Shown one piece after another: positions 9,203 through 62,642 of a stretch of DNA of 64,000 nt. The notes under the pieces were generated by a model, which was given only the letters and a program-made list of their open reading frames with translations, was not told the origin of the DNA and did no database searches. The translations under genes and the position numbers were made by a program. The DNA is from Bryobacteraceae bacterium (GTDB lineage Bacteria; Acidobacteriota; Terriglobia; Bryobacterales; Bryobacteraceae), in the NCBI GenBank assembly GCA_030041495.1, contig JASHNT010000107.1, positions 1-64,000 on the forward strand. The letters run 5' to 3'. The first letter of the stretch is position 1. Every line of letters begins with the position of its first letter.

Positions 9203-10197
9203 TTTCGCAGCACCTCTTGTTGGTACTCGGATTCATTCGGCATGGCGGGGATAAAAGAGACGCTTGGCTGCCCACGATTGGTGAATGACCATAGCAGGTC
9301 GCCGGACGCAACCCGGGAATTCAATACGAAGCTCGATGTTCCAAGCGGGTCGATAACGGTCGGACTAAAAGTGAGAGGTACGCTTGCGACCACCTGCCGG
9401 GTAACGCGGCTATAAACCTGCAACAACTGACCGCTCCCAGAGGCCACGTACAGAACCTTCTGATTGGTCGCGTCAATGCCGGGCTGGATGGCAACGGCAT
9501 CCTTTGCCAAGGCTGGCCAGGTTTGGCTTGCCGAACTTGCAAGGTCGATCTCCGACACCGCGTTGGTAGACGCGTCGAGAGCATAAACTGTGCTGCCATC
9601 CTCAGAAAACGCGAGAGCGATCGGTTGGGACATCTGCAGCATGGGTGAGAAAGATGTATCCGGCTCCGTGAGCTTATAGACACCCGCGTATTCCCCCGTC
9701 ACGCCGATCACGATGGTCTGGCCATCCGAGTCGGCTGCAACGGTTGAGAGAGTCCCTCCGAGCGTCGTGATGCTGACCGGCGCCGACACGTTGATTGCCG
9801 CCGGAAGACCACTTAGGCTTTGAATCCACCCTCCAGTTTTTGAATAAACTACGGCGACGGAACCGTCGCCCGACCAAGCCACTCCCTCCGGCAGCGACGA
9901 AAGCCCTGAGACCGCCACGGCGGAAACTTGAGTGGATCCTAGTCCGGAAACGAGGAATGTACGCAGGCCCCGAACGGCGATGCCGTAATTTTGGCCCGGA
10001 GCAACGGAAGCAAAACTCAAGCTCGGGACGATCGCCGGTCCCAGCGTGGACGATCCCAGTAAGCCGACCACAGCTCGAATGCTGGCGGTGGGTGCATCAA
10101 AAGTGAAGCCCTCGATGGGCCCGGAGACAGCCGTTGGTTGTCCTCGAAGATGGGCAATCGTCAAAAGTGCCGCGGCGAACAGGTGAGGCCTCGGCAT
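9199..10197 (-). CDS. Secreted beta-propeller-like protein of unknown function
   Basis: 332 residues with an N-terminal signal peptide (MPRPHLFAAALLTIAH). The rest is a series of roughly 40-residue beta-rich units (for example GDGSVAVVYSKTGGWIQSL, SEDGSTVYALDASTNAVSEIDL, NQKVLYVASGSGQLLQVYS) that resemble YVTN/NHL-type propeller blades. No catalytic motif is visible. It starts directly after the stop of the upstream Ig-like gene (no spacer) and overlaps the downstream Hydin-like gene by 4 nt, so the three are probably translated together. It may bind or scaffold extracellular polymer; this is speculation. Confidence 0.6.
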   Translation of the reverse strand: MPRPHLFAAALLTIAHLRGQPTAVSGPIEGFTFDAPTASIRAVVGLLGSSTLGPAIVPSLSFASVAPGQNYGIAVRGLRTFLVSGLGSTQVSAVAVSGLSSLPEGVAWSGDGSVAVVYSKTGGWIQSLSGLPAAINVSAPVSITTLGGTLSTVAADSDGQTIVIGVTGEYAGVYKLTEPDTSFSPMLQMSQPIALAFSEDGSTVYALDASTNAVSEIDLASSASQTWPALAKDAVAIQPGIDATNQKVLYVASGSGQLLQVYSRVTRQVVASVPLTFSPTVIDPLGTSSFVLNSRVASGDLLWSFTNRGQPSVSFIPAMPNESEYQQEVLRK

Positions 10198-10827
10198 CTA
10201 TTGTGGCACCCCTATTGAAGGAGAACCCGGCGTGACGGTAATGACACGGGGGCTCGAGCCGCGCGTCGCCAGAATGGTTACGGCAACCACGGCAGCGACG
10301 CCTGCGCCAATAGCAATCTTCCCCCAGGTAGTGGACCACCAGTGCTTTTTGCCGATCTTTTTCTGCGCTTCCGTGATCCGGGTCACGTTCGTCATCGTTA
10401 TGACCGCTGAACCCTGTTCTCCTCCGCGCGAAGCGGTGACTTGAACGTGAAATGTCCCTACCTTGCCGTTCGCTACCCAACCTACTGCCGAGGCCTGGCC
10501 GTCGACGTTGGTGCGGAACGTCTCCGCGGTCTTCTGATCTGCGAACGTGGCGCTAGGCCCCGTTAGTGGGAACCTGAAAACAACATCAGCGCCTTCGACG
10601 GGTAAGTCATTCTGGTCGAGCACCTGAACCACAAGCGGAGCCATCACGCCATTTTGGAGGTCGTTCATCTCCTGATTTCCGGCCAATGGAACAACCTTTA
10701 AGCTTTGAACCGTTGCAGGTCGCCCCGGAGCGGGTTGCGGACTCGAAGGCGCTTGCGCCAGGACGGCTGGTAGCGTGAAAAGCAGAGGAACGCTGAAGAG
10801 AGCCCAGCGATGCACACACTTAAGCAT
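10198..10827 (-). CDS. Exported Ig-like (Big1/invasin-type) protein with C-terminal membrane helix
   Basis: 209 residues: signal peptide (1-25, ending AVLAQ), proline-rich linker, one bacterial Ig-like domain (about 45-145) with the Big1 signature VVQVLDQNDLPVEGADVVFRF and TNVDGQASAVGWVANGKVGTF, then a basic segment (KKIGKKHWW) and a hydrophobic helix (about 170-190) followed by a short tail. Thus the Ig domain probably sits in the periplasm, tethered by the C-terminal helix. It follows the Wza-like gene in the NusG-headed operon. A role in envelope organisation around the export channel is inferred. Confidence 0.6.
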   Translation of the reverse strand: MLKCVHRWALFSVPLLFTLPAVLAQAPSSPQPAPGRPATVQSLKVVPLAGNQEMNDLQNGVMAPLVVQVLDQNDLPVEGADVVFRFPLTGPSATFADQKTAETFRTNVDGQASAVGWVANGKVGTFHVQVTASRGGEQGSAVITMTNVTRITEAQKKIGKKHWWSTTWGKIAIGAGVAAVVAVTILATRGSSPRVITVTPGSPSIGVPQ

Positions 10828-10867
10828 TTCCCCTCAGCTCCCCCTTCCCTTGTGGCAACGGTCCAAT

Positions 10868-11881
10868 TCAGAGCGCGCCGGCAGCGAGCAATGCGACCAT
10901 AAGAGCTGGTAAAGTCGTGAGCATGGCGGTACCAACAGGCCCCGCCAGGACAGCTTTCGCTGAAGAAGTGCGGGGGACGTAGAGTTCGTCATTCGGTAGG
11001 AGTGGGAAGTCGTTGTCCTTTCCCTCATAAATTCGATTGAGATTTAGCTCAATCTCGGCTCGGCGCGTGGTTCCCAGAATCGGTCGCAGGACTCGGACCT
11101 TGCCGCGGCTCGCGGTTGCCGTGAAACCCCCCGCTTGTGCCAATGCCTGTGTGACAGATATCGATGTTTGTTCTCCAAGCGGGACCGGGCCGGGCTTAGT
11201 AACTTCACCACTCACGAAGACAGGTTGCGCAGTTTCGGCGGTCACTCTGTCATAAGCTTTGAGAACAATGTTTTCAACAGGGTTAATATTCTGAGTTAGG
11301 CTGTCTAGGCTGATATCGACGAAACTGACTCCCTTTTGAGGATCCCTAACAGCGCTAGGGAGATCAATCGTCCCATATTCGGCTTGGCGCGTAACCCTGA
11401 TTCTACGCCCAGCGGTCGGCTCGAGACCGCCCGCCACTGCCAGCATCTCCACGAGCGTGCCCCCTCCTTGAAGCGCGTAGACTCCGGGCGCCTTAAATGC
11501 GCCCAGGAAAAAGACCGGCTCACTGCGGAAGGCCGTCATGGTAATGCTGACCCGCGGTTCCCGGATGAAGTCGCTCAGCTTACTAGTAATTAGGGTTTCT
11601 AAGCCGCGCACCGTCAATCCGGCGGCGTGGAGTTGGTCAATAAGGGGCAGGTCGACATTGCCGTCTGAATCGATCCGAAACGGCCGTCCATTGATCTCCG
11701 CAGTCTCAGGCACGACGTTGATCAGAAACTGATCGTTCGGTCCCAATTGGTAATCGGGCCGGAGCGCGGGCTGTTGACCGGCGGGCGCCTGAGGATTCGG
11801 CACCGCCGGAGGCTGGACTTGAGCAGACGCCCAGCCCACAAATAAGCATCCCAACAGAACGGCCTTGCGGGTGCAAATCAT
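10868..11881 (-). CDS. Polysaccharide export protein, Wza-like (Poly_export plus SLBB domains)
   Basis: 337 residues. A signal peptide ends near ASAQ (residue 21). A Poly_export domain covers about 40-125, with DYQLGPNDQFLINV, FRIDSDGNVDLPLI and VSITMTAF. Two SLBB-type ligand-binding folds follow (about 130-205 and 225-300: VYALQGGGTLVEMLAVAGGL; VPLGEQTSISVTQALAQAGGF). A hydrophobic C-terminal helix (about 310-337) could form the outer-membrane barrel helix, as in Wza. The family forms the outer-membrane pore for capsule or exopolysaccharide. No lipobox cysteine is visible. No Wzc/Wzx/Wzy partner is in the window, so the rest of the machinery must lie elsewhere. Confidence 0.85.
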   Translation of the reverse strand: MICTRKAVLLGCLFVGWASAQVQPPAVPNPQAPAGQQPALRPDYQLGPNDQFLINVVPETAEINGRPFRIDSDGNVDLPLIDQLHAAGLTVRGLETLITSKLSDFIREPRVSITMTAFRSEPVFFLGAFKAPGVYALQGGGTLVEMLAVAGGLEPTAGRRIRVTRQAEYGTIDLPSAVRDPQKGVSFVDISLDSLTQNINPVENIVLKAYDRVTAETAQPVFVSGEVTKPGPVPLGEQTSISVTQALAQAGGFTATASRGKVRVLRPILGTTRRAEIELNLNRIYEGKDNDFPLLPNDELYVPRTSSAKAVLAGPVGTAMLTTLPALMVALLAAGAL

Positions 11882-45872: not shown

Positions 45873-46026
45873 GGTTAGTCCTCAGCATGTAGACGGCCAA
45901 CTTTTGCGCGGCCCTGATCGCGCCTTCGCGGAGGCTCTGCGCGAAATCGCTCATCGCTGCTGGAATGGCTGCGCTGGTATCGCATAGCGTGAAGTACCTG
46001 GTTCTAAGGCCTTCCCATGAGCTCAT
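45859..46026 (-). CDS. Possible small linking ORF between protease and kinase genes
   Basis: 55 residues (MSSWEGLRTRYFTLCDTSAA...). Its ATG overlaps the protease stop codon (ATGA) and its end overlaps the kinase start by 14 nt, the arrangement of a translationally coupled operon gene. The sequence looks helical and amphipathic but matches no family I know. It may also be a chance frame that only couples translation. Confidence 0.35.
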   Translation of the reverse strand: MSSWEGLRTRYFTLCDTSAAIPAAMSDFAQSLREGAIRAAQKLAVYMLRTNHERS

Positions 46027-47621
46027 TGCCGGCTTACCACCACGCTGCGCCAAGCCGTATTGCCGGAAGTGTCCGTCGCCGTGATGGTGACCGTGTTCGA
46101 ACCCACCAGTAGCGGGATCGATGCACTCCAGTGAGCTGTTCCAGACGCGGTCCCCGAAGATCCGGTATTGGTTTGCCATGTCACTGCCGCCACCGCGACG
46201 TTATCGGTGGCGGTTCCCGAGAACGTGAGCGTCGCCGCGCTGGTGGATACGGTCGAACCTCCCGGAGACGAAATCGTCAAGGTCGGCGGCGTGGTGTCCT
46301 TGCTGCCGCCCGATCCCGGATTGGCCGGCGTCGGCGTTGGGGCGGGAGACGGAGCGGGTACCGGAGTGGGGCTCGGTGTGGGCGCTGGAGTGGGGCTTGG
46401 GGTGGGAGCGGGAGCAGGCACCGGAGCCGGTATAGGGGCAGGACTGGCATTCGCCGCCGGGCCGGGCGCGTACAGAGTCTGAATTGCGGCGATATCGCCC
46501 GAGTTCAGCGTGCTCACGCGTTTGTAATAGGGATACATGACATCGCTGGGGTCGTCCGAATGACCCAGGCCGAGCGCGTGCCCCAACTCGTGCAGCGCCA
46601 CGCTGAACACGTCGGTATCCGTACCGATGTGCCAGCTTTCCGAATCGTTGAAGTGCATGTCGCCGGCGATGGGCTCCGGATTCGGAGGCGCGGGATAGAA
46701 CGTGTGCGCCAGTACCCCTCCGGGACCGGTGAACGGGTAGCCATCGCCGTGCGCGTAGCTGGCGAAGAAAATGTTGACGGTTTGGGGAGCGGTTGGATTT
46801 GTGCCTTGGGTCCAGGTCACATGCACCACTTGCGACCACTGCGCCATCGCCTGCTGGATCGCGGCTTCGGTTTGGCTGGAGGGAAGCTGTTCGGTCATTT
46901 GGCTGAACACATAGCCAACGGTGGCGGCGCCATGGCTTGGGCCGGCCCAGCCGTTGCCGTAGGTCGGGATGTTCTGCGTCACGTCGCCGGCGGTGGTCTC
47001 CGGACTCGCATACGCTCGCGTGGGAACGGCTTTGACCAATTCCGGCGAAGCAGGGAAAATGTAGTTGACTTCGTCTTGCTTGGCCAACTCCGCGAGGGTG
47101 CCCGGCACCGCCGCCGGATTTTCCACCTGGATCATCAGGTGCTCCGGCGCGAGGTCCGGATTCTCCTGGACAGTGAGGCCCAGACGCAGCAGCACTCCGC
47201 GCGCGTCGCCAGGCGCTACGTCTTCATGAAATTCGACCAGAAAGTGGCCCTGCCACTGGGCCGCATTGGCGGTGATAAGGGGACTGATCTTGTCGGAGGG
47301 CGCAATAGGTTCGGCGTAAATCGCGCCTAAACCTTCCAGCGAAACACGCCCGCTGAGCGTCACCAGCAGTCCGTTCTCCGGAATCCCCTGCAGCACGTGA
47401 ATGCCGCGCGATTCCAGCTCCGCGATAGTGCTCCGCGCCGGCGCTTGCGCGAACTGCAACAGCAGGTGGCCGGAGCGGAACGGCACCGGGGTGTCCGCCT
47501 GGCGCACCATGTGGCTGGGATCCGAGTGGATGTCGCGAGTCTTCAACCGCAGAACCGGTTGAGCGAAGCAGGTTCCCATGGCAAGGAGAAGGATTAGAGA
47601 ACAACCAGAAGTTCGTCGCAT
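46023..47621 (-). CDS. Secreted matrixin-like zinc metalloprotease with C-terminal Ig domain
   Basis: 532 residues from ATG 47621, with a signal peptide (cut near CFAQ, residue 21). Residues 40-200 form a propeptide-like region (HLLLQFAQAPARSTIAELESRGIHVL) resembling inhibitory subtilase-type prodomains. The catalytic domain (about 220-375) has the metzincin zinc motif HELGHALGLGH (344-354) and the Met-turn DVMYPYY (Met362). A Pro-rich (PAPTPSP) linker (about 385-430) leads to an Ig-like domain (about 440-530) of the glucodextranase/Big type. It is secreted and probably attached to polymer or cell surface via the Ig domain. Confidence 0.88.
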   Translation of the reverse strand: MRRTSGCSLILLLAMGTCFAQPVLRLKTRDIHSDPSHMVRQADTPVPFRSGHLLLQFAQAPARSTIAELESRGIHVLQGIPENGLLVTLSGRVSLEGLGAIYAEPIAPSDKISPLITANAAQWQGHFLVEFHEDVAPGDARGVLLRLGLTVQENPDLAPEHLMIQVENPAAVPGTLAELAKQDEVNYIFPASPELVKAVPTRAYASPETTAGDVTQNIPTYGNGWAGPSHGAATVGYVFSQMTEQLPSSQTEAAIQQAMAQWSQVVHVTWTQGTNPTAPQTVNIFFASYAHGDGYPFTGPGGVLAHTFYPAPPNPEPIAGDMHFNDSESWHIGTDTDVFSVALHELGHALGLGHSDDPSDVMYPYYKRVSTLNSGDIAAIQTLYAPGPAANASPAPIPAPVPAPAPTPSPTPAPTPSPTPVPAPSPAPTPTPANPGSGGSKDTTPPTLTISSPGGSTVSTSAATLTFSGTATDNVAVAAVTWQTNTGSSGTASGTAHWSASIPLLVGSNTVTITATDTSGNTAWRSVVVSRQ

Positions 47622-47713
47622 CAACTGTTTATCGCCTTAACTCCTCATCGACTCGCGATGAGAGCTTTCCGGTCCAAATACCACTCAGTACAGGTAAGTC
47701 GATTACCACTCAA

Positions 47714-54346: not shown

Positions 54347-55600
54347 CTAACGCGGATCCGTGATTCTTCCGGCTAGCACCGAAGCGGCCACGGTGTCCGC
54401 CGACGCCAGATACACGCGCGCCTTGGGGTGCCCATTGCGTCCCGGAAAGTTGCGAGCCTGATTCGAGATCATGGCCTGCTCCTCGCTCATCGCGCCCATG
54501 TTGACGGCCTGATTGGAGCCAGCGCTGGGCGGGAAAAGGATCGCTCCGGCTTCAATCAGCGCTTCCACCAACCCCTCGCGCAAAGCCGCCAGCAAAATGC
54601 CGCGCGTGGCCGGCACAATCTGCAGCCGAACGCTGGGATGGACTTTCTTCCCGCGCAGCCGCGCCGCGGCGGTGCGGATGTCGCACAAACGTCCGCCGGT
54701 GCTCCCGCCGATTTCGGCCAACTGAATCTCGATTCCGGCTGCTTCACCAATGGGTCTCACGTTGCCGATGGTCGGAGGGCAGGCGACTTGCGGCTCGAGC
54801 TTGCTGACGTCGATATCGGCCACGCGCTCGTATTTGACGCCCACGTCGTTGGTGAACATCTCAAAGTCGCGCGTGCCGGCGTGCGCCAGCGCAAACTCGC
54901 GAGTCTTCTCGTCTGGATTGATGAAGCCGGCTTTCGCGCCCAGGTCGATCGCCATCAACGGAAACAGCAAACGGTCCTCCATCGAGAGGTCCCCGATGAA
55001 CGGTCCGGCGTATTCGACGGCTTGGTACACCGCGCCGTCCTCGCCGAGAAAGCCTTCCAGATACTGCGCGACATCCCGGGGCGTGACGCCGCACTGCAGT
55101 TCGCCGTGCAAGTGAATTTGAACTGTCTGCGGAACCTTGAACCAGCACTTGCCGTGCGCGTATCCCAGCGCCGCCATCGAATTGTTGCCCACGCCCGTCG
55201 AGAAGACTCCCAGCGCTCCGTAAACGGTCGTGTGGGAATCGCATCCGATGACGACCCGACCCGGAGCCCACAGGCGGTTTTCGATGATCACGTGGTGCAA
55301 GCTGCCGGATCCGGAATCAAACACATTTCTGATTCCGTGTTTCGCGGCAAACCCGCGGGCTTCCGTCAGCACTTCCGCGTCCCGTTGCGACGGAGGTGAA
55401 AAGGTGTGATCGAAAACGAAGGCGATGCGATCCGGATCGAAAATTTTTCCTCCGCCCATCTCCTGCTCAAAAACCTTCGCCACCAGATTCGAGCTCAAGT
55501 CGTGCAGAACCATCCGGTCGACGTTGGCGATCACGACATCGCCCGGCTCGACTTGTTTCCTGCCGCTGGCGTTGGCGAGGATTTTTTCGATCATGTTCAT
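54347..55600 (-). CDS. LeuC-like aconitase-superfamily large subunit lacking all three Fe-S cysteines
   Basis: 417 residues from ATG 55600, which overlaps the upstream stop (ATGA). It has the full three-domain LeuC fold, with GCDSHTTVYGALGVFSTGVGN, VEYAGPFIGDLSMEDRLLFPLMAIDLGAKAGFI and QVACPPTIGNV. The cluster-binding motifs are lost: GSC-T-N-G-R is IGGSTGGR (Ser300), and GCGAC is PSAGSN (Ala360, Asn363). The nearby intact paralogue (60891-62147) keeps Cys at all three positions. So this protein cannot hold a normal [4Fe-4S] cluster. It is the last gene of the operon and presumably pairs with the LeuD-like protein. Function unknown. Confidence 0.8.
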   Translation of the reverse strand: MNMIEKILANASGRKQVEPGDVVIANVDRMVLHDLSSNLVAKVFEQEMGGGKIFDPDRIAFVFDHTFSPPSQRDAEVLTEARGFAAKHGIRNVFDSGSGSLHHVIIENRLWAPGRVVIGCDSHTTVYGALGVFSTGVGNNSMAALGYAHGKCWFKVPQTVQIHLHGELQCGVTPRDVAQYLEGFLGEDGAVYQAVEYAGPFIGDLSMEDRLLFPLMAIDLGAKAGFINPDEKTREFALAHAGTRDFEMFTNDVGVKYERVADIDVSKLEPQVACPPTIGNVRPIGEAAGIEIQLAEIGGSTGGRLCDIRTAAARLRGKKVHPSVRLQIVPATRGILLAALREGLVEALIEAGAILFPPSAGSNQAVNMGAMSEEQAMISNQARNFPGRNGHPKARVYLASADTVAASVLAGRITDPR

Positions 55601-56433
55601 AGCAGGCTGCTTCCCGAACACGTGTCGCCGTAATATAAACCACGATGTTCCACGTGCAACGCGTAGATCGTGCCGGTTCCAGCTTCGTACGGCTGCGGAC
55701 CGGCGAGATTTTCGCGGAAGCCGCCGCCGTTTGTAACCGCGGCTTCAAAACGTTCGCGCAACTCGGCGATCTCCTCCGCTGGCCCGTGCGCCCGCGTCAC
55801 TTTCACCCAGTTCCCGCAGTACTCAAGCGCGAGCCCAACCGAATACGCGCGGTCCTCGCGGTGCTGGACGCGCAGGATTAGATCTTCCGCGCCGGCTCGT
55901 CGCAGCTTCCGTTCCAGATCACCGATTGCATCTGTCAACTCCACGCTTCGGGCCAATGCGAGCGCTTTGCGGCGCATCGCCAATTCAGCTTCATCCGGTT
56001 CGATGATTCCCGCCGAGGGAACGTCCACGATTTCGAGCCCGGGCAATCCGGAATAAATTTCGACCGGCAGCTTCGGCAAGTCTAGGACGCCGAGCTTCGA
56101 CCAACCGCGCTCCGCGCACAATTGTTCGAGCGAAGCCGTCAGCTTTGACGCCGGCCGGATGTCTTCCAAAATCGTCACCGACTTGATCCACGGATACACG
56201 CGCGGCGAAAGACCGCACAGCAGGACGGGCACGCCTTCGTGCGGAATCGCAATCAGAGACCGATTCCAGTACGGCATGAAGTTGGTCAGGAAGCGGCCCT
56301 GGTTGGATCGCCAGACGTCGGAATAAACCAGCAGTGCGGGGAGATCGCGCGCGGCCAGTGCTGCCTGCACGCGATCCAGGCGGAAGCGGAAAGCTTCGAG
56401 CGGCGTTTGACGCGCGATCAGTCCGCGCTTCAT
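55597..56433 (-). CDS. M24/creatinase-like protein without metal-site motifs
   Basis: 278 residues. The first 130 resemble a creatinase/prolidase N-terminal domain (RLDRVQAALAARDLPALLVYSDVWRSNQGRFLTNFMPYWNRS). The remainder resembles part of a pita-bread fold (LAMRRKALALARSVELTDAIGDLERKLRRAGAEDLIL) but has none of the D-D-H-E-E metal ligands and is shorter than complete M24 enzymes (about 350-400 residues). The start ATG overlaps the upstream M24 stop (ATGA). It may form a hetero-oligomer with that protein. Assignment to the family is moderate. Confidence 0.6.
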   Translation of the reverse strand: MKRGLIARQTPLEAFRFRLDRVQAALAARDLPALLVYSDVWRSNQGRFLTNFMPYWNRSLIAIPHEGVPVLLCGLSPRVYPWIKSVTILEDIRPASKLTASLEQLCAERGWSKLGVLDLPKLPVEIYSGLPGLEIVDVPSAGIIEPDEAELAMRRKALALARSVELTDAIGDLERKLRRAGAEDLILRVQHREDRAYSVGLALEYCGNWVKVTRAHGPAEEIAELRERFEAAVTNGGGFRENLAGPQPYEAGTGTIYALHVEHRGLYYGDTCSGSSLL

Positions 56434-57473
56434 GCCACGTCCTTCACGAAGAGCTTTCGCTCGGTTTGCGTCAAGCGCTCATTGCCCGTCTTTGTAACCA
56501 GCATCGGATCGCCGAAAACCATGTAGCCGGCCAGCGGCAGATAGGTGTTGGGATGCGCGATGATGACCATGTTTTCCTTCAGCACGTAATCGACGTCTTC
56601 CAAGATGTGCGGCGTCTCATCCGGGAACAGGCCCAGGCAATGGCCGCGCACGCGAGTGTATTTCGAGCCGGTGTAATCGCCGTAGCTATACTTGCGAAAC
56701 ACGTCGTTCTGTGCGCGCGCCACGTCGGAAGCTTTGATTCCCGGCTTGATCAAATCCTGCGCGGCCTGTTGCGCCTCATGAAATATCGCGAAGGATTCCA
56801 GTTGGCCTGCCGAAGGCGGGCCTAGAACAACGGTCCGGCAGATCTGCGCGTAATAGCCGTTGACGCACGGAGTGAGCTCCGTGATGACCGAATCGCCCTT
56901 TTGAAGCTTGCGATCGGTCGGAGGCTTCATCCCGACCACTTCCGTACCGCCGGAAGCGATCAGCATGAAGTTGTCTTCCGCACCGTTAGATTTCAAGAAG
57001 CCTTCGACTTCGGCAACGAGCTCGTACTCGCGCATTCCCACCGCGGCTGTTTGCACGAAGAATTGGTAGCCGCGATCAGCCAGCGCCGCGGCCTCGCGAA
57101 GGAAACCGACCTCTTCCGCGGTCTTGACGCGTCGCAGTTCTTCTATATCGGCGGTCGCGGAAACGGGCGAGCCGGCAACGAAACGGTTCTCCATCAACTC
57201 GAGCCCCGCGATGGCCAAGGCTTTCGGAAACTCGCCGGTGAATTCGCGCGAGCCGGAAAGCAGATCACGGTCCCAGGGATCGGCGAAAAACACCGTGAGA
57301 TCCCCGGATCGTGTCAGATGTGCCCCCGCATAGGGGCCGCAATAATTCACATTCACAAGGCAGCGGAAGTAGTCTTTGCGCCAGCCGTGGCCGTACAGTA
57401 AAATCGAATCCCATCCGCGCTCGGCCATCAAGTCCATCAACTGGCGGCGGCGATGTTCATTGACTATGCTCAC
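56430..57473 (-). CDS. M24-family creatinase/prolidase-like hydrolase with altered metal site
   Basis: 347 residues from GTG 57473, which overlaps the upstream stop (GTGA). The creatinase-type N-domain (YGHGWRKDYFRCLVNVNYC) and pita-bread C-domain are recognisable. Comparing with the M24 ligand motifs: D-x-G becomes ITELTP, S-D-x-T-R-T becomes AQICRT (Asp to Gln), G-H-G becomes RGHCLGL (His kept), E-P-G becomes AHPNTY (Glu to His) and the last Glu becomes Lys (VTKTGN). So four of five ligands differ. Creatinase is a known metal-independent member. The substrate may be a small C-N compound. Confidence 0.7.
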   Translation of the reverse strand: MSIVNEHRRRQLMDLMAERGWDSILLYGHGWRKDYFRCLVNVNYCGPYAGAHLTRSGDLTVFFADPWDRDLLSGSREFTGEFPKALAIAGLELMENRFVAGSPVSATADIEELRRVKTAEEVGFLREAAALADRGYQFFVQTAAVGMREYELVAEVEGFLKSNGAEDNFMLIASGGTEVVGMKPPTDRKLQKGDSVITELTPCVNGYYAQICRTVVLGPPSAGQLESFAIFHEAQQAAQDLIKPGIKASDVARAQNDVFRKYSYGDYTGSKYTRVRGHCLGLFPDETPHILEDVDYVLKENMVIIAHPNTYLPLAGYMVFGDPMLVTKTGNERLTQTERKLFVKDVA

Positions 57474-58549
57474 GGCGACACCGACTCCAGGAACCACTCG
57501 GTCGGCAGTTCGCGGCCGAGTCCCATCGCGCGGGCACGTTTCACCACCGCGGCTCCGACGGCGGCGAACTGCGTTCCCGCGCCGGTGTTGTTATTGAAGC
57601 AGGTGATCTGATCGGCGCTTACGCGGCCTTTGGCTTTGCCCGCAACCAGATCTTGCAGCTCGCCGATGTCTTCCCAGCGCTTGATGCCCTTCTGCGCCAC
57701 TTCCCACACGTCGGGGGATTGATCGTTCCTGGCGACCTCTTTCGAGTGCACAAAGTAGATGTCGGCGCGGCGGATGCATTCATCGTCGATCTCGCGGCGC
57801 TTGTTGCTCGCGTCGGAGCCGCCGATCGAGGCCACATACATCCCCTTTTCGACCCAATGGCCGTCGAAGACCGGGTCCCAAGCGGCGGTGGCGGCTTGAA
57901 TGAAGTCGCTACTCACGGCGCACTCCCTCGGAGTGCCCACGGCCCGTACATTGTCCCGGCCGAGCTTGCGGCTCATCTCCTTGCAGAACATTTTGCAGTG
58001 TTCCTGATTCGGGCTGTAGACCTTGATCTCGTCGAATCGATACTGTGCGGCCAGAAACTCCAGATGCGCGCTGGCCTGCCATCCGCTGCCGAACAATCCC
58101 AGTGTGCGAGGCTTCTCTGGAGCCAGATACTTCGCCCCCACCGCGCTCATGGCGGCTACGCGGACTTTCTGGATCACTCCGTCCGGCATGATCGCGACTG
58201 GCTCGATTTTCTCGACATCGAAAAGAATCACCAGACCGCAATAAGTATTGCCCGTGGCCACCGGCAGAATCCGGCGGCGCTTAACGCCAGCAGTATAGGA
58301 GAATCCGGCCATGTCCGAAGTCAGGCGCAGAGCCCACATTCCGCAGTCGAGGCTCCCGCCCTCTTGCGTCTTCATGCGGTAGTGAAAGCCGGGGTGTTGT
58401 TTCGATTCCGCCGGCAAATAAACTTGCGAGCGAGGCCGGTTCAGAGCCTTCCCTTCGGCCAGCTCACGATAGATGCTCTCCGTCGCCGCGATGGCTTCCT
58501 GCGGCAGCAGGGCTTTCTCGACTTCTTCATTATTGAGCAGCAGAGTCAT
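57470..58549 (-). CDS. Ornithine cyclodeaminase / mu-crystallin family protein
   Basis: 359 residues. The family pattern is clear: N-terminal RPRSQVYLP, HYRMKTQEGG, then the Rossmann NAD(P)-binding region DGVIQKVRVAAMSAVGAKYLAPEKPRTLGLFGSGWQASAHLEFLAAQ, VKVYSPN-type strand and CAVSSDFIQAATAAWDPV. Members include ornithine cyclodeaminase, ketimine reductase, alanine dehydrogenase and EutC-type proteins. Both its ends overlap neighbours (ATGA, GTGA), so it is a core operon member. It may reduce or deaminate an amino-acid-like or cyclic imine substrate. Confidence 0.88.
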   Translation of the reverse strand: MTLLLNNEEVEKALLPQEAIAATESIYRELAEGKALNRPRSQVYLPAESKQHPGFHYRMKTQEGGSLDCGMWALRLTSDMAGFSYTAGVKRRRILPVATGNTYCGLVILFDVEKIEPVAIMPDGVIQKVRVAAMSAVGAKYLAPEKPRTLGLFGSGWQASAHLEFLAAQYRFDEIKVYSPNQEHCKMFCKEMSRKLGRDNVRAVGTPRECAVSSDFIQAATAAWDPVFDGHWVEKGMYVASIGGSDASNKRREIDDECIRRADIYFVHSKEVARNDQSPDVWEVAQKGIKRWEDIGELQDLVAGKAKGRVSADQITCFNNNTGAGTQFAAVGAAVVKRARAMGLGRELPTEWFLESVSP

Positions 58550-59058
58550 TGCCCGAGCCAGCTCCTGCCGGCTTCCGATTTCAGTAGCGGAATCAATCCA
58601 CCCGCGCGCAGCATGTCGAGCAGGATGCCTCCGGGCGGAGTTCCTTGAATCGACGCGCCGGTGGTAAGGTTCTCCACCAGCCCGCGCTCGACATCCACGC
58701 GCAGGCGGTGACCGGTCTCGACGAAATCATGGATGCCGCGGACTTCAAGAATCGGCAAGCCGATTTCCGGCCCGTTGCGGTAAAACGTGCGCGAAAAGAA
58801 TTCGGCCAGCACCGCACCAACTCCAGTGGCCTTGATCGCCTTGGGCGCGATAGCGCGACCGGAGGAGCATCCGAAGTTGCGCCCGGCTACGATGATGTCG
58901 CCTTTTTGTACGTTCTTCGGGAAGTCAGGATTGGCGTTTTCGAGAACGTGCTTGACCATCTCAGGCATGCCGCGCATCACCAGATGCGTGGGCGTGATCA
59001 TGTCGGTGGGGATATTATGACCGAACTTCCAGCAGTTGCCTTCCAGAATCAGATTCAC
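58546..59058 (-). CDS. LeuD-like aconitase-superfamily small subunit
   Basis: 170 residues from GTG 59058, chosen because the swivelling domain begins at once (LILEGNCWKFGHNIPTDMITP) and no later start keeps it. The MFS gene end overlaps by 44 nt. The signature is GRNFGCSSGRAIAPKAIKATGVGAVLAEFFSRTFYRNGPEIGLPI. The specificity loop (THLVM after the TDMITP segment) does not match the YLRT-type loop of isopropylmalate isomerases, so the substrate probably differs. Its LeuC-like partner is encoded five genes away at the operon end. Confidence 0.82.
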   Translation of the reverse strand: MNLILEGNCWKFGHNIPTDMITPTHLVMRGMPEMVKHVLENANPDFPKNVQKGDIIVAGRNFGCSSGRAIAPKAIKATGVGAVLAEFFSRTFYRNGPEIGLPILEVRGIHDFVETGHRLRVDVERGLVENLTTGASIQGTPPGGILLDMLRAGGLIPLLKSEAGRSWLGQ

Positions 59059-60238
59059 GGGTTTTGCGCCCCACGGCGAGGAACAGAGCGAATGCCAGAA
59101 CGCAGGATAGCAGGTCCACGGTGAACGCCGTCGAATAGCGATGAGTGGAATCGTAGATTGCGCCCGCCACCACGCCGCCGGAACTCGTGCCCAGTCCGAA
59201 GAACAGCATGAAGAGGCCGAGGATGGTGCCAACGCGCTCAGTTCCGAAATATTCAAACGCGATGATCGAAGGTGCGTTGAAGATGCCGCCGTAGCCGAGG
59301 CCGAAGACCGCCGCAGTGAAGTAGACGGCGGTTGACTTGGGATCGGCTGCGATCAAGCCAGCGCAGCCCAGGATGAGGCAAGAGGTCGCGAGCAGCATGG
59401 AGACGCGGGTTGAAAATCGATCTGCCGCTGCGCCGCCCATCAGTTTGCCGAACGCGCTTGCGCCGAGCAGAGTGCTCAAAGCCTGCGCGGCATCCGGAGG
59501 CTTCACGCCCTGCCCACGCAGATACAAGACCAGGTGCTCCTGGACGCCCATCAGGGTGTGCGCCGCGAAGAACAAGCTAACACCGAAGATCCAAAAGAGA
59601 GGGCTCTTGAGAACGCCGCCTGCGTCGGAGATCGAATGGCGGGCATGACTCGCAGCGGCGCGCGGAGCATCTCTTGGTGCTTGCGGAGCGAGCACCAGCG
59701 TTACAACCAATGGAATCGCCAGGAATGCGCTCAGCGTAAGGAATGCCTGCGAGTAGCCTTGCTGGGCAATCAATTTCGTGGCCAGCTTCGGAAAGATGTA
59801 GCCGCCGAGTCCGACGCCTGCGTTGATCACGCCGACGGCGAGCCCGCGCTGCTTGGTGAACCACGGAGCGATCAGCATCGATGCCGGCACCAATGATGCC
59901 GCGGCGATCCCGATTCCCAGCAGCGTGCAGAACGCATACCACTGGATCTCCGTTTGCGTGGTGGACATCAGAGCCATCGCCGCAGCGCAGGTGACGCATC
60001 CGCCCAGGATCACGGCCTTCGGAGAATACTTGTCAGCGAGCCAGCCGATTAGCGGCCCCAGTACTCCGATCAGTAGCAGGACGACCGATCCTCCGCCCGC
60101 TGCTGCGGCGTGCGACCATCCGAACTTTTTCGGGTCGGCAAAGACGGCGTAGAAGACGGGGAGCGAGAATCGCCCCGCGCAGAACGCCACTGCGAGCACG
60201 GTGAAGGAGACGAATAATCCTCTTGCGCGCGGAATCAC
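59015..60238 (-). CDS. MFS transporter (monocarboxylate/oxalate-type)
   Basis: 407 residues from GTG 60238, which overlaps the upstream stop (GTGA). Twelve membrane helices are visible, with the MFS loop motif GWLADKYSPKAVILGG between helices 2 and 3 and GGAAADRFSTRVSMLL between 8 and 9. Helix features such as FGLGYGGIFNAPSIIAFEYFG and GVINAGVGLGGYIFPKLATKLI resemble oxalate:formate/monocarboxylate transporters. It probably imports the operon's substrate, likely an organic anion. A 23-bp repeat covers its start region. Confidence 0.87.
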   Translation of the reverse strand: MIPRARGLFVSFTVLAVAFCAGRFSLPVFYAVFADPKKFGWSHAAAAGGGSVVLLLIGVLGPLIGWLADKYSPKAVILGGCVTCAAAMALMSTTQTEIQWYAFCTLLGIGIAAASLVPASMLIAPWFTKQRGLAVGVINAGVGLGGYIFPKLATKLIAQQGYSQAFLTLSAFLAIPLVVTLVLAPQAPRDAPRAAASHARHSISDAGGVLKSPLFWIFGVSLFFAAHTLMGVQEHLVLYLRGQGVKPPDAAQALSTLLGASAFGKLMGGAAADRFSTRVSMLLATSCLILGCAGLIAADPKSTAVYFTAAVFGLGYGGIFNAPSIIAFEYFGTERVGTILGLFMLFFGLGTSSGGVVAGAIYDSTHRYSTAFTVDLLSCVLAFALFLAVGRKTRESDSGRQLLEVRS

Positions 60239-60256: not shown

Positions 60257-60808
60257 CGCCAGTCTCGTGCTGCTCTGAGCCGAGCGAGGATCTCCTGCTT
60301 CTCCGATGCGAGAATGTCGCTGGTCTCCAGGTCGTACCAACGGGCGGTCAGATATTGGTCTTCAAGGCGGTAGAGGTCCTGGTCAACAAACGAGGAGCCG
60401 TTGCGGACGCCGAAGAGGATGTATCGGTGCATCCCATAATGAGCTTCGTCAGGCACCCACTCAAAATCTGCCGTAACAAAGATTTTGGTGTCTGAAATGG
60501 ACGGCTCATCCCAGAACTCATGCTGGCTTTGGTTCGAGATCGAGACCCGAGAACAGCCGCGCCGGCCGCCCCGGTGCGGTCTCCACAACGTCCGCGTCCG
60601 GATCCCCTCCAAACTTGTCCGCCATCGTGAAGCACTGCCGAGAAGTCCCTTCCAGGCACAGCGTCGCCGGGCCATGGGGCCGTAACCCAGCCGGATCATC
60701 AGTCCCGGGACTCACTACCGTCACATCGCGGCCCATGAACTTCAGAGGCTCTTGCGCGGCGAGGCCCACAGCTAGCACGGCGAACGCGACCAACGCTCTA
60801 GCGATCAC
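60235..60808 (-). pseudogene. Frameshifted small exported protein heading the operon
   Basis: From GTG 60808 the frame reads a signal peptide (IARALVAFAVLAVGLAAQ) and FMGRDVTVVSPGTDDPAGLRPHG...CFTMADKFGGDPDADVVETAPGRPARLFSG, then reaches a stop at 60518. Another frame continues with VSISNQSQHEFWDEPSISDTKIFVTADFEW...YLTARWYDLETSDILASEKQEILARL to a TGA at 60235, overlapping the MFS start. The two coherent halves indicate one gene with a frameshift or deletion near 60560. It could be a sequencing error, a real pseudogene or, less likely, programmed frameshifting. I do not know the family. Confidence 0.6.
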
Positions 60809-60890: not shown

Positions 60891-62147
60891 ATGGGATTCA
60901 CCATCGCTGAAAAAATCCTCGCTGCCAAGTGCGGGAAGTCGTCTGTCACCCCGGGCGAGATTGTCGAGGCTTATCCCGATCTGGTGATGAGCCACACGGC
61001 GACGTGGCGCTCGGTGAGCGTGATGAATAAGGTTGGCGCAACGAAGTTGTACGATCCGGATCGGCTCGCCGTGGTGCTGGATCATATTGCTCCGGCGAAG
61101 TCGGAGAAGAACGCCTCGGATCATCAAGCCTGCCGGACGTTCGTGCGCAAATATGGCGTGCAGAAATTCTACGACGTCGACGCGGGAATCGCGCACCTGG
61201 TGCTGATGGAGCACGGGCATGTCGCGCCCGGCGACCTGATCGTCGGCACCGATTCGCACTGCACGATTTATGGCAGCTTGGGTGCACTCGGCACGGGCAT
61301 CGGATACACGGAAGTGACGTCGGTGTGGATCACCGGAAAGCTGTGGATGAAGGTTCCGGAGACGTTCAAGATTACGCTATCAGGCCAGCTTCGCCCAGGT
61401 GTTTATTCGAAGGACCTAATGCTGCATTTGATCGGCACGCTGGGGGCGGATGGGTGCAGCTACAAATCGGTGGAATTTTACGGTTCGGCTGCGGGGTTGA
61501 GCGTGTCGGAGCGGATGACCATGACCAATCTCGCAATGGAGATGGGCGTCAAGTGCGCATTCATTCCGCCGGATGCGAACACCGAGGAGTATCTGCGGGG
61601 CCGGCTCAAGGATGCCTCACGATACCAGCCGGTGTTTGCCGATGGGGACGCGGTTTACGAGCGCGAACTCGGCGTCGACTTGTCGACGCTCGAGCCAATG
61701 GTCGCGTGCCCGCACGAGGTGCAGAACACCAAGCCCATCGGACAAGTGGAGGGCACGCGCATCGATCAGGCGTTCCTTGGTTCGTGCGCAAATGCGAAAT
61801 ACGAAGATCTGGTGGTCGCCGCGCGGATTCTCAAAGGCCGGCGCGTTCATCCTAACGTGCGTTTCATCATCACTCCGGGATCGAAGGAGATCATGCTGGA
61901 GGCGGTGAAGACGGGAGTCGCGACGACGTTGCTGGAGGCCGGAGGGTTGTTCACGAATCCGGGCTGCGGAGCTTGCGCGGGTGATGGAGGAGTGATGGCC
62001 GATGGCGAGGTGTGCCTCTCCACGGCCAATCGCAATTTCCTCGGGAGGATGGGCTCGAGCAAAGCGGAGATTTATCTCTCCAGCCCGGCGACGCTGGCGG
62101 CGTCGGCGATCAAGGGCGCGATTGCTGATCCCAGGGAGTTTTTTTGA
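60891..62147 (+). CDS. LeuC-type aconitase-superfamily large subunit with intact Fe-S ligands
   Basis: 418 residues from ATG 60891. Substrate and cluster motifs are present: VGTDSHCTIYGSLGALGTGIGYTEV, AFLGSCANAKYEDL (Cys299) and NPGCGACAG (Cys359 and Cys362), then STANRNFLGRMGS. It hydrates/dehydrates a 2-hydroxy acid, as in isopropylmalate, homoaconitate or dimethylmalate dehydratases. No leuA or leuB is adjacent, so leucine synthesis is not shown by context. The small subunit starts 3 nt downstream. It is divergent from the operon that encodes a second, cluster-less LeuC. Confidence 0.9.
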   Translation: MGFTIAEKILAAKCGKSSVTPGEIVEAYPDLVMSHTATWRSVSVMNKVGATKLYDPDRLAVVLDHIAPAKSEKNASDHQACRTFVRKYGVQKFYDVDAGIAHLVLMEHGHVAPGDLIVGTDSHCTIYGSLGALGTGIGYTEVTSVWITGKLWMKVPETFKITLSGQLRPGVYSKDLMLHLIGTLGADGCSYKSVEFYGSAAGLSVSERMTMTNLAMEMGVKCAFIPPDANTEEYLRGRLKDASRYQPVFADGDAVYERELGVDLSTLEPMVACPHEVQNTKPIGQVEGTRIDQAFLGSCANAKYEDLVVAARILKGRRVHPNVRFIITPGSKEIMLEAVKTGVATTLLEAGGLFTNPGCGACAGDGGVMADGEVCLSTANRNFLGRMGSSKAEIYLSSPATLAASAIKGAIADPREFF

Positions 62148-62150
62148 GGC

Positions 62151-62642
62151 ATGGAAGCAAGCATTCACGGCCGCGCCTACAAATTCGGCGACAACATCAA
62201 CTCCGATATCATCATCCCCGGACGCTATTTGATTTACATCGATCAGCAAAAGCTAGCCGAGCATGCATTCGAGGTGCTCGGGCCGGAGTTTCCGGCCAAG
62301 CTGCGCGACTTTCAGATCCTAGTGGCCGGGCGCAACTTCGGATGCGGCAGCGCACGAGAGCAGGCGGCCACCGCGATTCAGGGATTGGGTATCAAGGCGG
62401 TGATCGCCTGTTCCTTTGCGCGCACGTTTTACCGCAACGCGATCAACGATGGTCTGCCGATTTTCGAATGCCCCGATTTGTACCCGGCCGTTGAAGAAGG
62501 CGACGAACTCACCATCGATCTGGCGGCCAGCGCGATTCTGCACAAGGGCAAGGCTTATGGCTTCCCGCAGTTGCCTGAGTCGGTTCGCAAAATTCTGGAG
62601 CTGGGCGGGCTGGCAGCGTACTTGAAAACCCAGCTCTCTTAA
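62151..62642 (+). CDS. LeuD-type aconitase-superfamily small subunit
   Basis: 163 residues, starting 3 nt after the large-subunit gene. The swivelling-domain signature is GRAYKFGDNINSDIIIPGRYL, then VAGRNFGCGSAREQAATAIQGLGIKAVIACSFARTFYRNAINDGLPIFEC, with the active-site Ser/Arg in GCGSAR. The substrate-recognition loop is YLIYID, not the usual YLRT, so the substrate could be homoaconitate, dimethylmalate or another malate derivative rather than isopropylmalate. It is convergent with the GT2 gene 7 nt away. Confidence 0.88.
   Translation: MEASIHGRAYKFGDNINSDIIIPGRYLIYIDQQKLAEHAFEVLGPEFPAKLRDFQILVAGRNFGCGSAREQAATAIQGLGIKAVIACSFARTFYRNAINDGLPIFECPDLYPAVEEGDELTIDLAASAILHKGKAYGFPQLPESVRKILELGGLAAYLKTQLS

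Follow-up and report, generated by a model that had tools for sequence, protein, structure and literature searches.

In the aconitase superfamily, the iron of the cluster binds and activates the substrate. The same fold is found in IRP2, which functions without a catalytic [4Fe-4S] cluster, and in the M24 family both creatinase and the ectoine hydrolase DoeA/EutD are metal-free proteins. The nearest precedent for the protein described here is aconitase X (AcnX), a mevalonate-5-phosphate dehydratase that, in the available excerpts of two papers (PMC8184944, PMC5144071), departs from the three-cysteine rule of the superfamily and, in those of the former, is still Fe-S dependent. The locus analyzed here encodes an aconitase-fold large subunit, designated LeuC', in which all three cluster cysteines are replaced. 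In the open-licence literature, nothing was recognized on a cysteine-free LeuC, on the LeuC' gene set, or on an aconitase-type enzyme in aromatic meta-cleavage.

Sequence features of LeuC'

The window, i.e., the whole 64,000-nucleotide stretch of DNA that was analyzed, comes from a draft genome of 144 contigs. It contains LeuC' as well as an intact LeuC-type paralogue:

54347..55600, minus strand: LeuC', aconitase-fold large subunit, 417 aa, with Ser300, Ala360, and Asn363 replacing the cluster cysteines
54689..54715, minus strand: EIGGSTGGR motif, residues 296-304 of LeuC'; Ser300 is at the place of Cys358
54512..54532, minus strand: PPSAGSN motif, residues 357-363 of LeuC'; Ala360 and Asn363 are at the places of Cys421 and Cys424
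60891..62147, plus strand: intact LeuC-type paralogue, 418 aa, with Cys299, Cys359, and Cys362, transcribed divergently from the LeuC' operon
62151..62642, plus strand: LeuD partner of the intact paralogue, with the sequence NFGCGSAREQ

Re-extraction of both coding sequences confirmed, exactly as claimed in the initial annotation, that Ser300, Ala360, and Asn363 of LeuC' stand opposite the three cysteines of the intact paralogue, which lies ~5 kb away and is 37% identical to LeuC'. The further claim, that the SHTT active-site region and the rest of the fold are kept, agrees with the alignment, in which the GCDSHTT, DH, and ARNFPGR regions are all present. The LeuC' frame runs from an ATG start to a TAG stop. 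Its product matches the Aconitase domain PF00330 with 221.8 bits (cut-off, 28.7) and belongs to the homoaconitase/isopropylmalate isomerase (HACN/IPMI) large-subunit family NF001614 (424 bits; cut-off, 385).

The annotation of LeuC' that its family name would provide, isopropylmalate dehydratase, is very likely wrong. A role in leucine biosynthesis as isopropylmalate isomerase was rejected on the scores with TIGR02083 (LEU2), 378 bits versus 610.65, and TIGR00170 (leuC), 141.6 versus 560.25, and on the presence in the same genome, on contig C133, of another LeuC-like protein (a 477-aa frame with a PF00330 score of 579.6 bits). Elsewhere in the window, positions 46023-47624 (minus strand) encode a probable secreted metalloprotease that has a HELGHALGLGHS motif and whose long linker is rich in proline.

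Conservation, spread, and selection

The initial annotation had proposed a multiple alignment to see if the loss is shared by a clade, with the possibility that close homologues all keep the three cysteines. The result was the opposite: the Ser/Ala/Asn (S/A/N) triad is present in all 15 full-length copies, including that of the window, and in one partial copy (from G653), i.e., in 16 of 16 copies, versus C/C/C in each of the 23 rows from more distant LeuC proteins. Among 257 genomes of the order, 12, including that of the window and representing 3 of the 84 genera, carry a LeuC' copy with at least 66% identity, and all 12 have S/A/N. In that search, the triad was read at 20 loci, namely, in the window, in 11 orthologues close to it (L007-L017), and at the next-best 8 loci in the order (L018-L025; 41-43% identity); these last 8 all have Cys/Cys/Cys. 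In tblastn rows, the intact paralogues are displayed as CCA through a one-residue gap; alignment A3, used below, gives CCC.

Two peptide patterns, which more divergent cysteine-free relatives may have escaped, were scanned against 84,980 species genomes. This added three full-length orthologues and one fragment, including one in a metagenome-assembled genome (MAG) labelled Gammaproteobacteria and others in MAGs labelled only Acidobacteria. In the class of MAG G650, LeuC' was found in 1 of 274 genomes, G650 itself. Within a sample of the phylum, 77 of 396 genomes match LeuC' at 1e-100, with scores over 408 bits in the window's genome alone, and the 29 loci inspected from these matches are all C/C/C. 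Matches at 1e-60 were seen in 37 of 72,556 plasmid records, the best being 39% identical, figures that refer to overall similarity and not to the triad. Among viral contigs, 79 stretches fit a pattern and none of them codes for a relative.

The GGSTGGR and AGSNQA motifs are invariant among the LeuC' copies, and the PPS residues vary (PAS in L048 and PPG in L049). The bases of the triad differ silently between species (AAT or AAC at codon 363; GCT, GCC, or GCG at codon 360; AGC, once AGT, at codon 300), so the amino acids themselves are being held. Ka/Ks of the window's LeuC' against 14 orthologues ranges from 0.06 to 0.22, with dS of 1.3 to 2.8 being near saturation, and is 0.02 to 0.07 in four close LeuC' pairs. 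LeuC' is therefore under purifying selection; the 417-aa frame and these low ratios bear out the earlier description of a full-length gene that is not decaying. In the tree, the S/A/N proteins form a monophyletic clade with support of 100/100; its branch is long (1.46 changes per site), of a kind that may attract other long branches. All LeuC'-bearing genomes are MAGs, and these are separate assemblies from different projects, so the recurrence of the same triad excludes an assembly error.

Active site

Residues were mapped through an alignment (A3) with mitochondrial aconitase and 23 Cys-bearing homologues. The equivalent of Asn258 (aconitase numbering) is Leu in 13 of 13 S/A/N rows and Asn in all 23 Cys-bearing rows, and that of Asn446 is Ala in 13 of 13 and Asn in 22 of 23, respectively; both asparagines are presumably contacts of the cluster. 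The Glu262 equivalent is Asp in all 13 S/A/N rows. The equivalents of Asp100, His101, His147, Asp165, Ser166, His167, Arg447, and Arg452 are kept in all 13. A cysteine, Cys120, directly precedes the Asp-Ser-His sequence in all 15 full-length LeuC' proteins and in none of the 23 Cys-bearing rows.

The AlphaFold model of LeuC' has a pLDDT of 92.0 and a pTM of 0.91, the weakest blocks being residues 361-370 (pLDDT, 63) and 381-390 (70), the loops expected to hold the cluster. It matches homoaconitase 4kp2 with a Z-score of 56.8, aconitase 7acn with 40.4, and AcnX (7cnq/7cnr) with ~20. Since the ligands and the second shell have been lost while the acid-base and carboxylate-binding residues stay, it is the predicted cluster site that is dismantled, and the remaining active site, as judged from the alignment, is not.

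The LeuC' operon

LeuC' is the last gene of a six-gene operon that is transcribed in a single direction in the order MFS, LeuD', OCD, M24A, M24B, LeuC'. The other five genes are as follows:

59015..60238, minus strand: MFS transporter of the monocarboxylate/oxalate:formate group; the operon begins with this gene, whose frame opens at 60340 and whose start is estimated at 60238
58546..59058, minus strand: LeuD', dedicated aconitase small subunit, 170 aa
57470..58549, minus strand: OCD, ornithine cyclodeaminase/mu-crystallin family protein, 359 aa
56430..57473, minus strand: M24A, creatinase/prolidase-fold protein, with a GTG start at 57473 or 57497
55597..56433, minus strand: M24B, degenerate pita-bread (M24) protein, 278 aa, matched to prolidases through AlphaFold/Foldseek

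Successive genes overlap by 4 nucleotides (GTGA or ATGA), and MFS and LeuD' overlap by 44. The other genera keep this order on every contig that is long enough to show it; the LeuD'-OCD-M24A-M24B-LeuC' arrangement is also found in L048 and L049 and is kept in the MAG labelled Gammaproteobacteria.

LeuD' matches the small-subunit domain PF00694. Its loop, NFGCSSGRA in 12 of 12 copies, replaces the usual NFGCGS(S/A)RE and, aligned with NFGCGSSRE of 3vba, retains the catalytic Ser and Arg. The cysteine in its G-x-CWKFG sequence is likewise invariant (12 of 12). In M24A, the metal-ligand columns defined by prolidase 1pv9 hold E207, Q218, H286, H315, and G329 in 11 of 11 rows and not D, D, H, E, and E, so that M24A appears, from its sequence, to be the second member of a metal-dependent family in this operon that is metal-free. 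The profile search gave no Pfam or NCBIfam match for M24B; its model (pLDDT, 83.7) matches prolidases (E value of 3e-12), which identifies it as a degenerate M24 protein. Its C-terminal part is absent in at least three copies. M24B evolves fast and always adjoins M24A, and it is possibly a pseudo-subunit of a heterodimer. A second M24A-M24B pair is found in G173 on the contig that carries the intact LeuC-LeuD genes (L107:528-2680, minus strand, and 10020-11776, plus strand); between the two regions lie genes for a probable regulator and for a binding protein of the NMT1 type. The relatives of the OCD protein include the SbnB siderophore enzyme family.

Co-inherited genes and pathway context

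Among the 257 genomes of the order, an intact LeuC of the window's type (at 1e-150) is encoded in 11 of the 12 LeuC' genomes and in none of the 245 others; the sole LeuC' genome without it, G187, is 82% complete. The association holds when the intact pair is on another contig, as in G171, G011, G170, G173, and G177. M24B is encoded in 12 of the 12 and, again, in none of the 245. Hypergeometric probabilities for such co-inheritance are 1e-17 to 1e-21, a calculation that ignores relatedness and so indicates a strong association only. In G171, two MmgE/PrpD proteins and an ABC transporter adjoin the intact LeuC (L104:2059-7405, plus strand).

All 12 LeuC' genomes, versus 4 of the 245 others, also encode a LigY/LigJ-type amidohydrolase, and all 12 encode RraA-like proteins. 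At 1e-140, the amidohydrolase is detected in 15 of the 257 genomes, which are 11 of the LeuC' genomes and four others; in the twelfth LeuC' genome, G186, its gene is split across two contigs. As far as the contigs reach, the genes immediately downstream of LeuC' in L027, L028, and L030 code for the amidohydrolase, an NMT1/SsuA-type binding protein, an ABC ATPase and permease, and RraA-like proteins. In the window's genome, this module is on a different contig (G000:C95:18880-23838); in the wider region L119 (G000:C95:10000-29900), a gene for an Amidohydro_1 protein of the PRK08204 group precedes those for the amidohydrolase, two RraA-like proteins, and components of an ABC transporter. In two of the four LeuC'-free genomes, the amidohydrolase gene contains in-frame stops; these two genomes of the window's genus (G191:C60:6910-7917 and G195:C157:6232-7242) look as if the pathway were disappearing.

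The amidohydrolase matches LigY with an E value of 7e-120 and 4-oxalomesaconate hydratase with 2e-66. The match of the RraA-like protein to 4-carboxy-4-hydroxy-2-oxoadipate aldolase is weak (5e-15), and it scores under the NCBIfam cut-offs. A LigB-type class III extradiol dioxygenase is encoded within the module of G177 (L122:9230-10219, minus strand) and in that one module only. The L048 cluster includes a carrier similar to PcaK, a LysR regulator similar to PcaQ, and a TonB-dependent receptor. Taken together, the gene set points to a pathway that degrades an aromatic acid through meta-cleavage. The tricarboxylate intermediates of meta-cleavage are keto analogues of homoaconitate and homocitrate, which suits enzymes of the HACN/IPMI type. 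The OCD and M24 proteins suggest that the substrate also contains nitrogen. A hydroxyproline-type pathway that would combine AcnX with an OCD reductase was considered and rejected, the OCD gene being its only support at the locus.

Proposed function

The initial annotation had reasoned that a cluster-free version needs either another mechanism or a non-catalytic role, and this reasoning stands. We infer the former, with LeuC' being a cluster-free aconitase-fold enzyme that acts in the degradation of an aromatic-derived oxo-tricarboxylate, probably by proton transfer; the chances of this being correct are about even. LeuC' and LeuD' would form a heterodimer without a [4Fe-4S] cluster, to which LeuD' would contribute the catalytic serine and a carboxylate-binding arginine and LeuC' the Asp/His acid-base residues and further arginines. 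The substrate would have an already activated C-H bond and would most likely be a meta-cleavage oxo-tricarboxylate of the 4-oxalomesaconate or 4-carboxy-4-hydroxy-2-oxoadipate type. With the carboxylates held on arginines and Asp/His acting as general acids, the LeuD' serine could abstract the proton. With a keto group beside the acidic C-H, this could isomerize or dehydrate the substrate without a Lewis acid; the step would be a double-bond or keto-enol isomerization or an E1cB elimination. The exact reaction carries less weight than the reading as a whole. In such a pathway, the intact LeuC/LeuD would catalyze a cluster-dependent hydration and the RraA-type proteins would perform the final aldol cleavage.

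The full proposal is more tentative, its likelihood being somewhat below even. It holds that an aconitase-fold enzyme is active without an Fe-S cluster, through Ser/Arg/His proton transfer on a keto-activated tricarboxylate, beside an M24-fold enzyme that has shed its metal, in an undescribed catabolic pathway of ~14 genes that pairs a cluster-free aconitase with a cluster-bearing one. Several observations count against the cluster-free catabolic reading in general. Plain gallate or protocatechuate cleavage would have no need of OCD and M24-fold proteins. The LigB-type gene comes from a single module, and the RraA-like proteins resemble LigK weakly. The amidohydrolase is encoded off the contig in the window's genome and is present without LeuC' in four others. 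The same set includes the metal-dependent intact LeuC/LeuD, which makes a general flight from metals less likely. Finally, the invariant Cys120 of LeuC' and the CWKFG cysteine of LeuD' could hold a different metal.

If the reading is correct, a member of the superfamily that is conserved despite having no cluster would reveal the part of aconitase chemistry that the protein can do unaided, and it would make testable the proposal of a cluster-less ancestor of the superfamily found in the available text of PMC8184944. The locus also marks, in soil Acidobacteriota, an undescribed catabolic gene set in which two metal-dependent enzyme families seem to lack their metal sites; the intact LeuC/LeuD inherited alongside is a ready internal control.

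Alternative explanations

Two alternatives are serious: that LeuC' is a partner without catalytic activity, or that its metal site has been relocated and uses Cys120. The first would make LeuC' a pseudoenzyme, serving LeuD' or the intact LeuC/LeuD as a regulator or scaffold, or else an IRP1-like binder of nucleic acids. The absence of all three cluster ligands, the almost constant co-inheritance of intact LeuC, and the presence in the operon of the degenerate, pseudo-subunit-like M24B are in line with such a role, as is the moonlighting of apo-aconitases as RNA binders (PMC4150767, in the portion available). It is unlikely, however, given that a scaffold needs none of the substrate-binding arginines and acid-base residues that are invariant in 13 of 13 rows, that a dedicated LeuD' with its own invariant changes in the catalytic loop is co-encoded, and that Ka/Ks is low across the whole of LeuC'.

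The next alternative in line, also improbable, is that LeuC'/LeuD' is a metalloenzyme whose site (mononuclear Fe or Zn, or [2Fe-2S]) has moved to Cys120, His102/His123, and possibly the cysteines of LeuD'. The distribution of Cys120 and the invariance of the CWKFG cysteine argue for it, and AcnX provides a precedent for a relocated cluster (excerpts of PMC8184944). However, AcnX retains, in the same excerpts, cysteines at or near Cys421 and Cys424, where LeuC' has Ala and Asn; besides, LeuC' has gained a single new cysteine, and the second-shell residues of the cluster have become hydrophobic.

It is far less probable that the operon directs the biosynthesis, or the uptake and use, of a metal-binding compound and that LeuC'/LeuD' and M24A are metal-free because their substrate chelates. 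This would account for two proteins from metal-dependent families that lack their ligands, and it would agree with the TonB-dependent receptor of L048 and with SbnB among the OCD relatives. However, the same set contains an intact iron-sulfur LeuC/LeuD, no PLP, NRPS, or NIS genes were recognized by eye in the neighborhood ORF lists, and the amidohydrolase, RraA-like, LigB, PcaK, and PcaQ-like neighbors speak of catabolism. A mutation in a single genome, decay, or an assembly error is ruled out by the shared triad of all 16 copies, the synonymous codon turnover, and the low Ka/Ks.

Comparison with known systems

The closest relatives of LeuC' are the archaeal HACN/IPMI enzymes, such as MJ1003 and MJ0499 of Methanocaldococcus jannaschii, which it resembles in fold and length (Z-scores of 56.8 and 53.4) and with which it shares the type of small-subunit partner and the acid-base and carboxylate-binding residues. 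It differs from them in having neither the three cluster cysteines nor the equivalents of Asn258 and Asn446, and it scores under the equivalog cut-offs for LEU2 and HacA_Meth.

AcnX probably has a related fold (Z-score of ~20, well short of the 56.8 for HACN); LeuC' is far closer to HACN/IPMI. The [2Fe-2S] or [3Fe-4S]/[4Fe-4S] cluster of AcnX is bound by other cysteines. At the corresponding positions, LeuC' is devoid of cysteine and has His102, Ala360, and Asn363 (opposite His147, Cys421, and near Cys424, respectively, according to the available excerpts of PMC8184944), and membership in AcnX was rejected for this reason. Chains of IRP1 and IRP2 are among the structural matches of the LeuC' model. 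Unlike these proteins and the apo-aconitases, LeuC' is a split, two-subunit bacterial protein; its gene belongs to a metabolic operon, and its substrate-binding residues are conserved.

M24A has the same fold as creatinase and DoeA/EutD and likewise lacks the metal ligands, but its best alignment is with Xaa-Pro dipeptidases, and its score is far under the DoeA equivalog cut-off. In the lower pathway of protocatechuate 4,5-cleavage and gallate degradation (LigY, LigJ, LigK, LigU, and GalD), LigY/LigJ and LigK are matched by the proteins of the amidohydrolase/RraA module, whereas that pathway has no role for the OCD and M24 proteins.
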